A stretch of DNA of 64,000 bases, taken from assembly GCA_016218085.1 (NCBI GenBank), contig JACREY010000020.1, forward strand, positions 248,001 through 312,000, in the 5' to 3' direction. Position numbers and translations under genes: made by a program. The DNA comes from Ignavibacteriota bacterium (GTDB taxonomy: Bacteria > Bacteroidota > Ignavibacteria > Tepidaquicellales > Tepidaquicellaceae). Shown here one piece after another: positions 13,204 through 13,838 of the stretch. The notes beneath the pieces were generated by a model. It had not been told where the DNA came from. It searched no databases and saw nothing but the letters and a program-made list of their open reading frames with translations. Position 1 is the first letter of the stretch. Every line of letters begins with the position of its first letter.

Positions 13204-13286
13204 GGGTAGGTAGCGAAGTGGTTAAACGCATCAGACTGTAAATCTGACGACTGATGTCTTCGGAGGTTCGAATCCTTCCCTACCCA
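13204..13286 (+). tRNA. tRNA-Tyr (GTA)
   Basis: The 83-base type II tRNA has acceptor stem GGGTAGG/CCTACCC with discriminator A. The anticodon stem TCAGA/TCTGA carries GTA, a long variable arm (CGACTGATGTCTTCG) follows, and the T arm is GGAGGTTCGAATCCTTC. No CCA is encoded. First in the cluster, in the order commonly seen before secE/nusG. Confidence 0.95.
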
Positions 13287-13296
13287 CGTGAGTTCA

Positions 13297-13351
13297 TTTT
13301 AAAAATGCGGGAGTAACTCAGTTGGTAGAGTCATCCCGATTCCATCGGGAT
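13297..13351 (+). pseudogene. Partial tRNA-Gly copy (5' half) ending in a palindrome
   Basis: Bases 13297-13333 are an exact 37-base direct repeat of 13372-13408, covering a short AT leader, the acceptor 5' strand and the whole D arm of tRNA-Gly. Identity stops at the start of the anticodon stem. There a perfect 8-bp inverted repeat, ATCCCGAT-TCC-ATCGGGAT (13333-13351), takes over. No anticodon, T arm or acceptor 3' strand follows before the intact tRNA, so this cannot be a functional tRNA. Confidence 0.8.
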
Positions 13352-13381
13352 TGGATGGAAAGAATAAAGTTTTTTAAAAAT

Positions 13382-13454
13382 GCGGGAGTAACTCAGTTGG
13401 TAGAGTCACAGCCTTCCAAGCTGTTGGTCGCGAGTTCGAGTCTCGTCTCCCGCT
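13382..13454 (+). tRNA. tRNA-Gly (TCC)
   Basis: The 73-base cloverleaf has acceptor GCGGGAG/CTCCCGC with discriminator T. The anticodon stem ACAGC/GCTGT carries loop CTTCCAA (anticodon TCC at 13415-13417). The T arm contains GTTCGAGTC. No CCA is encoded. A partial copy of its 5' half lies upstream and a decayed 3'-half-like sequence lies downstream. Confidence 0.95.
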
Positions 13455-13462
13455 CGAGAAAA

Positions 13463-13523
13463 GGAGTATGAGAACTAGTATAGTTGGTCGTTCCGGTGTT
13501 TCTGGATCACTCATCTCCTGCTC
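13463..13523 (+). other. Decayed tRNA-Gly 3'-half-like sequence
   Basis: GTTGGTCG at 13483-13490 repeats the same octamer of tRNA-Gly (13423-13430). CTCATCTCCTGCTC at 13510-13523 matches the tRNA-Gly 3' end (13442-13455) at 12 of 14 bases. The ends GGAGTATGAG and CTCATCTCC can pair with a single bulge. No intact cloverleaf can be drawn. It may be a degenerate copy left by duplication or recombination, or chance similarity. Confidence 0.35.
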
Positions 13524-13543: not shown

Positions 13544-13616
<73 letters not shown>

Positions 13617-13741
13617 CGAGTAACAGTTAAAACATTTTTCAGATATTGGAAAACAAAATTTTTTCTTCGCGAGATTTTACTTATTCAATATTTGTTGCGG
13701 ATTTTATATCGAACTTTATTTAAGTTCTTTTTTTTTATTTT

Positions 13742-13814
13742 ACGGGTGTAGCTCAATTGGTAGAGTAGCGGTCTCCAAAACCGTCGGTTGGGGGTTCGAT
13801 TCCTCCCACCCGTG
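13742..13814 (+). tRNA. tRNA-Trp (CCA)
   Basis: The 73-base cloverleaf has acceptor ACGGGTG/CACCCGT with discriminator G. The anticodon stem GCGGT/ACCGT carries loop CTCCAAA (anticodon CCA). The T arm is GGGGGTTCGATTCCTCC. It lies 24 bases upstream of secE, the usual position in FCB-group and many other genomes, and is probably processed from the same transcript. Confidence 0.95.
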
Positions 13815-13838
13815 CAGACTTCTAAATGTTAAAAACAT

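Follow-up and report, generated by a model that had tools for sequence, protein, structure and literature searches.

Why should an intact bacterial tRNA gene stand between two broken pieces of itself? The question is raised by a tRNA-Gly(TCC) gene of an Ignavibacteriota bacterium, located in the 64,000-nucleotide stretch of DNA that we analysed (the window), which lies on contig C15 of a genome of 3.3 Mb in 22 contigs (G000). Here, we compare the two pieces with the rest of this genome, with related genomes and with the loci of a family of small nucleases. We consider it quite probable that both are remains, now without an ORF, of a small chromosomal element that homes into tRNA genes by means of a freestanding GIY-YIG endonuclease some 80 residues long.

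The tRNA-Gly locus

The gene is part of a cluster in the order Tyr, Gly(TCC), Thr, Trp (ARAGORN and Rfam; Table 1). The sequence-only reading of the window had noticed that its leader and 5' half are repeated exactly, and we found the 37-bp unit TTTTAAAAATGCGGGAGTAACTCAGTTGGTAGAGTCA twice without a mismatch. Chance is ruled out as the source of two exact copies 75 bp apart at a tRNA-Gly gene, and the sole tRNA call over the two copies falls on the second. The first copy, as had also been described, breaks off at the anticodon arm into a perfect hairpin, followed by TTGG and then by sequence unrelated to tRNA-Gly. With a computed energy of −9.6 kcal/mol, this hairpin is matched in folding by 3 of 200 shuffles, and in silico folding yielded no cloverleaf for the 5' remnant. 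Reading the hairpin as a terminator was rejected, as the next letters are TGGATGG, without a T run. A search of Rfam at the gathering threshold likewise led us to reject any RNA other than the four tRNAs.

Table 1 Features of the tRNA-Gly locus (positions in the window).
Feature	Position	Strand	Called by
tRNA-Tyr(GTA), neighbour upstream of tRNA-Gly	13204..13287	+	ARAGORN/Rfam
37-bp exact repeat, copy 1 (10-nt leader and tRNA-Gly nt 1-27)	13297..13333	+	
5'-type tRNA-Gly remnant upstream; palindrome replaces anticodon arm, remainder gone after TTGG	13307..13354	+	
Perfect palindrome ATCCCGAT-TCC-ATCGGGAT at the anticodon-arm place of the 5' remnant	13333..13351	+	
37-bp exact repeat, copy 2	13372..13408	+	
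tRNA-Gly(TCC), intact	13382..13455	+	ARAGORN/Rfam
Decayed 3'-type tRNA-Gly remnant downstream	13486..13523	+	Match to G005 remnant
tRNA-Thr(GGT), neighbour downstream of tRNA-Gly	13544..13617	+	ARAGORN/Rfam
tRNA-Trp(CCA), last of the cluster	13742..13815	+	ARAGORN/Rfam

A second remnant had been suspected downstream of the gene, and a related genome bore this out. The piece consists of GGTCG, a decayed 16-nt palindrome (13491-13506) and a decayed 17-nt tRNA 3' end (13507-13523). Compared with the intact tRNA alone, it gave p = 0.06 (strict) or 0.0035 (lenient) in 2000 Markov shuffles. The palindrome-bearing Gly remnant of a same-family genome (G005; L010), which reads GGTCG-TCCCGAGTGGTCGGGA-AGTCTCGTCTCCCGCTC at the equivalent place, shares 26 of 38 ungapped positions with it, a score that 20,000 shuffles never attained and that is unique to this place when both strands of the window are scanned. 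The scar form GGTCG-TCCCGA..TCGGGA-AGYC also occurs at tRNA-Asp of the own genome (L043) and in two further genomes (three times at L203, and at L210).

Among 18 same-family relatives, none has the 5' copy and one (G005) has the 3' copy, so that the state of the window is either recent or often lost. The contig of a same-genus genome (G001) ends within tRNA-Gly, leaving the window without a close empty site. A GIY-YIG ORF is absent from the window locus; the eight PF01541 matches of the own genome all lie off contig C15.

Partial tRNA copies elsewhere in the genome

We scanned the 48 distinct tRNA sequences of the own genome with flanks of up to 1200 bp and found partial self-copies at 11 of the genes, namely Gly-TCC, Asp, Cys, Pro-TGG, Leu-TAA, Leu-GAG, Thr-TGT, Glu, Ala-GGC, Arg-ACG and Ser-GGA (not counted are Thr-GGT, a cross-match, and Ala-TGC, whose match spans 11 nt). 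The copies keep to a strict side rule: a 12-mer scan located 5'-half copies upstream of seven genes, with the Thr-GGT cross-match among them, and 3'-half copies downstream of seven, with zero copies on the wrong side, on the opposite strand or in the reversed control. Most of them carry a palindrome in, or in place of, one arm. At tRNA-Asp, the intact gene has a GIY-YIG ORF on either side (one of the two contains an in-frame TAG), and tRNA-Cys has a single such ORF downstream; each of the three has the intact gene on one side and a palindrome-bearing piece on the other.

The tRNA-Arg(ACG) gene (G000:C15:195087-195158; L108) is followed by a DUF433 and DUF5615 gene pair, which we take to be toxin-antitoxin-like, and then by 30 nt that repeat the 3' end of the tRNA exactly and, unlike most partial copies in this genome, hold no palindrome. 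Should the pieces at tRNA-Gly, then, be read as attachment-site scars of a lost integrase-type element, be it a phage, an ICE or a genomic island? The two-gene cassette at tRNA-Arg(ACG) fits such a reading, and tRNA fragments are common at integration sites according to the part of the published account consulted (PMC9897764). We nevertheless regard this origin as very unlikely, given that 5'-part copies lie upstream of six tRNA genes, that palindromes sit inside the remnants and that the repeat units of the arrays read, with about 300-450 bp including the nuclease ORF, offer little space for more.

The same architecture in related genomes

The sequence-only reading had proposed a comparison of the locus among related genomes. 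The Gly pattern GGTAGAGTC-ATCCCG..CGGGAT is present in 10 of 149 genomes of the class (reversed pattern: none), and the replacement palindrome of this form often retains the 17-nt length of the anticodon arm. A GIY-YIG ORF lies between tRNA-Gly and the palindrome-bearing remnant in five of the ten (G030, G033, G036, G064, G154). G031 has an ORF-like stretch after tRNA-Gly, and G068 carries five Gly remnant units at 96-bp spacing without an ORF. The distribution is patchy and includes both empty and occupied sites; it is thus not that of an unrelated structured RNA conserved across the phylum, the outcome that had been named as speaking against the remnant interpretation.

Nine genomes other than that of the window share the Gly architecture, and nuclease loci are spread across many phyla (see below), which led us to reject the notion of a single-genome oddity. 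The recurrence also makes an assembly artefact in a repeat-rich contig less likely. Although the genome is split into 22 contigs and G001 offers an example of a contig ending inside this very tRNA gene, the 3' remnant has diverged from the intact gene, and we give an artefact hardly any credence.

How the pieces came to their positions can be read from G036, which has the element, and G038, which lacks it. Their flanks are nearly identical: the 5' remnant of G036 is preceded by what is the leader of tRNA-Gly in G038, and the 3' remnant of G036 is followed by the trailer of that G038 gene, so that the remnants hold the original outer positions. The intact tRNA-Gly of G036 has a new leader, and the nuclease ORF is next downstream.

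In the genus of G229, we searched 25 genomes and read eight tRNA-Leu(TAA) loci. Four of these are free of ORF and remnant (G264, G274, G275, G284), three hold one unit (G269, G270, G283) and one holds three (G229). Insertion and stacking are shown by the occupied and empty sites and by copy numbers of zero, one or three in a single genus. Further arrays were found in G212, which has three units ahead of tRNA-Arg and, on another contig, eight GIY-YIG matches, and in G254, with two units before tRNA-Ser. Two further loci (L256 on G212:C34 and L259 on G196:C14) hold arrays, both of GIY-YIG-remnant units and of numerous ORF-less 3' remnants with ATCCCGACACGTCGGGAT, and no intact tRNA lies in the fetched stretch.

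In the four genomes whose Leu locus is occupied, copies of the tRNA-derived part plus terminator have a mean identity of 0.98 within a genome (9 pairs) and of 0.68 between genomes (36 pairs), and the ORFs have 64-73% DNA identity. The tRNA-derived parts are thus homogenised per genome, indicating that the duplicated part there tracks the host and not a foreign donor. Either gene conversion between the copies or duplication of host sequence at each insertion would produce this pattern.

A family of small GIY-YIG nucleases linked to tRNA genes

Five tRNA-linked ORFs match PF01541 with 53-64 bits, at a curated cut-off of 22.6. An AlphaFold2 model (pLDDT 95.4) adopts the GIY-YIG fold, and its best structural matches are UPF0213 proteins, Slx1, I-TevI and UvrC (VIA-align; matches with Z under 5, ribosomal proteins among them, were disregarded). 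In an alignment of 48 rows, Y5, Y16, G18, R26 and H30 are present in all and E62 in 47; we presume catalytic roles for the conserved tyrosines, arginine, histidine and glutamate. The ORF is under purifying selection (pN/pS 0.17-0.31, six pairs) and lies outside the intact tRNA gene, beside it.

A protein-similarity scan of 84,980 species genomes, blind to context, yielded 68 family loci. At 59 of them, a tRNA gene on the same strand lies within 400 bp of the ORF, with many isoacceptor types represented, and nine have no tRNA within this distance. Represented among the 68 loci are Ignavibacteria, other Bacteroidota, Patescibacteria groups, Omnitrophota, Neomarinimicrobiota, Elusimicrobia, Nitrospirae, Cloacimonadota and Planctomycetota. 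A partial copy of the neighbouring tRNA across the ORF beats all 100 shuffles at 37 of the 59 loci (counting L119, where the match is a cross-match with a copy resembling tRNA-Gly), and the other 22 have no partial copy above all shuffles. An independent sample of the phylum contained the family in 69 of 118 genomes. A near tRNA was seen at 24 of 30 fetched family loci in that sample (L201, L214, L219, L220, L222 and L225 being scored as without one). For another small GIY-YIG family, taken as a control, the count was 1 of 30, and that locus (L248) coincides with the family locus L210.

No vehicle came to light, with zero family matches among 72,556 plasmid records and one weak match among 50,697 phage records. 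A second small GIY-YIG family occurs in the own genome at C2:82268 (L044), C3:117233 (L048) and C8:117908 (L045), flanked by inverted REP-like repeats GTCATCCC..GGGATGAC and away from tRNA genes; 29 of its 30 loci in the phylum sample lack a nearby tRNA.

Palindromes and break points

The hairpin of the window had been suspected to be a mobile palindrome, and a search of the own genome confirmed that it is of a repeated kind: TCCCGA..TCGGGA palindromes occur at 29 places, the reversed control pattern at none. By coordinates, seven of these lie within tRNA remnants and 22 outside known ones (sequence context was read for 15 of the 29 places). The palindrome is thus not specific to tRNA genes, and we rejected it as the sole cause of the tRNA remnants. 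A tandem repeat around TCCCGAAACATCGGGA was also seen in this genome, with its copies 67 bp apart (G000:C3:1677 and 1744; L183, L184), and a link to tRNA genes was not seen there.

Nuclease loci are enriched in palindromes. With a stem of at least 6 containing at least 4 GC as criterion, the far side of the ORF holds a palindrome at 33 of 55 loci (the 59 tRNA-adjacent loci minus four with short flanks), compared with 3.9 expected from shuffles and with 13 of 363 control windows located 0.7-1.7 kb away; the far side of the other 22 loci has none by this criterion.

To locate the break points, we combined all 68 protein-similarity loci with 21 of the 30 phylum-sample loci (L198 duplicates L116), and 47 of these 89 loci have remnants anchored at a tRNA end. 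Half of the 3'-type remnants (13 of 26) break 17-19 nt from the 3' end, that is, in the T-loop, mostly as GGGTTC/palindrome/GAATCC, and eight of the 21 5'-type remnants break off where the D-loop ends, at 21-23 nt. Other remnants, the 5' remnant of the window among them, have the anticodon arm replaced. In nine T-loop remnants examined by eye (L135, L138, L145, L155, L171, L206, L209, L216, L224), tRNA letters stand on both sides of the palindrome, which is therefore an insertion there; several of the nine insertions, again by eye, are double hairpins. One of them (L145) is a nearly full-length tRNA-Glu interrupted by the palindrome at the T-loop.

A remnant whose palindrome arm folds and cannot decode might be a functional tRNA-like RNA under selection, for example a decoy, an attenuator or an antidote to a tRNA-directed enzyme. 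The arm-length replacement of the Gly form and the near-identity of remnants and host tRNA in one genus would suit such an RNA. On the other hand, palindromes are found equally in the T-loop, the D-loop or the anticodon arm, the distribution is patchy (10 of 149 genomes of the class; 5' copy in 0 of 18 same-family relatives), the 3' copy of the window is decayed and its 5' remnant does not fold into a cloverleaf. We thus hold a selected RNA function to be highly improbable.

A further explanation invokes ordinary tandem duplication of tRNA parts plus an independent, REP-like mobile palindrome, with the GIY-YIG genes as bystanders that tolerate tRNA neighbourhoods. It draws on the 22 of 29 palindromes outside known tRNA remnants, on several remnants without an ORF, including those of the window, and on concerted evolution at the Leu loci of one genus. 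Bystanders, however, would not explain why family ORFs are found at tRNA genes so consistently (59 of 68 and 24 of 30 loci) when the control family is not, and the recurrence of palindromes at the same loops of different tRNAs and the side rule, with 5' parts upstream and 3' parts downstream, also argue against this explanation, which we judge unlikely. Insertion directed at tRNA genes, one of the origins considered in the sequence-only reading, stands, while plain unequal recombination and classical integration by an integrase do not agree with the nuclease link, the many tRNAs and phyla involved and the side rule.

A proposed tRNA-homing element and its relatives

For the tRNA-homing element that we favour, we propose the following course of events. 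The nuclease would cut an element-free tRNA gene in or near a conserved loop, and recombinational repair would install the element, duplicating the interrupted tRNA part or bringing it along; occupied loci have one intact tRNA gene restored beside the nuclease gene, together with the duplicated part. The displaced original piece is found outermost, a 5' piece upstream or a 3' piece downstream, usually with a GC-rich palindrome that sits in one arm or takes its place and that would abolish the cut site and silence the remnant. Repeated entry at one tRNA gene would stack remnant-nuclease units into arrays such as those described above. Loss of the nuclease gene, as suggested by ORF-bearing and ORF-less forms at the same tRNA gene, would finally leave bare remnants like those of the window, which are best read as a 5'-type and a 3'-type relic beside the same tRNA-Gly gene. 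Several observations weigh against this course of events: the window locus has no GIY-YIG ORF, some family loci have no near tRNA, partial copy or palindrome, the tRNA-derived parts at the Leu loci of one genus follow the host, and plasmid and phage records gave no vehicle.

Parallels exist in several known systems. ORF360 of Allomyces at atp6 exemplifies intronless homing in which a substitute for part of the gene is delivered. As in the present loci, an endonuclease ORF lies between the restored gene and the displaced gene fragment; the Allomyces element is mitochondrial and resides at a protein gene, whereas the present one concerns bacterial tRNA genes and palindromes. The RtT repeats at E. 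coli tyrT are tandem repeats with the tRNA gene 3' end and thus resemble our arrays in having tRNA 3' ends in tandem, but to our knowledge they contain neither a GIY-YIG gene nor a palindrome scar.

The nearest precedent is SegB of phages T4 and T6, a freestanding GIY-YIG homing endonuclease in a tRNA cluster (PMC13096335; PMC2988022) and in that respect, by the portions of these accounts at hand, like the present family. The first of these accounts reports that SegB cuts inside tRNA genes, that 23 of 83 cut sites show the motif RAWTSGAAC and that tRNA-segB units form tandem arrays (PMC13096335). The reverse complement of this motif, GTTCSAWTY (derived here), corresponds to the tRNA T-loop, where the 3'-type scars cluster. 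SegB, however, is phage-borne and no palindrome scar is described for it in those portions, whereas the present family is chromosomal and extends over many phyla and tRNA types. Mitochondrial hairpin elements, single and double, are small insertions in genes and spacers, some of them in tandem pairs (PMC2800124), and resemble the remnant palindromes in these respects; the part of that account consulted describes no unit of tRNA remnant and nuclease. REP/REPIN sequences and RAYT likewise combine short palindromes with a dedicated single-ORF enzyme, but RAYT is a tyrosine transposase and REP/REPIN are extragenic and not tRNA-directed, as far as the consulted part of the source goes (PMC3116915). 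The open-access literature searched yielded no account of a GIY-YIG element that homes into tRNA genes of bacterial chromosomes, and we assign the window to the freestanding homing endonuclease elements, as an ORF-less relic of a variant not described before.

In its widest form, a claim to which we give an even chance, the hypothesis states that a mobile element crosses bacterial phyla with a nuclease of about 80 residues that would enter almost any tRNA gene via its conserved loops, restore the gene and mark the displaced copy with a palindrome against re-cutting, so that tRNA genes would be stacking points recording serial invasions. The scar poses the question whether mobile palindromes might be made by the nuclease or by repair of its cuts. 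The hypothesis also calls for caution in that tRNA fragments adjoining tRNA genes are not necessarily integrase scars. If the hypothesis is true, a whole class of bacterial tRNA half-copies and GC-rich palindromes would be accounted for, small ORFs annotated as 'GIY-YIG family' would gain a biology and bacteria would provide a model for intronless homing into essential genes.
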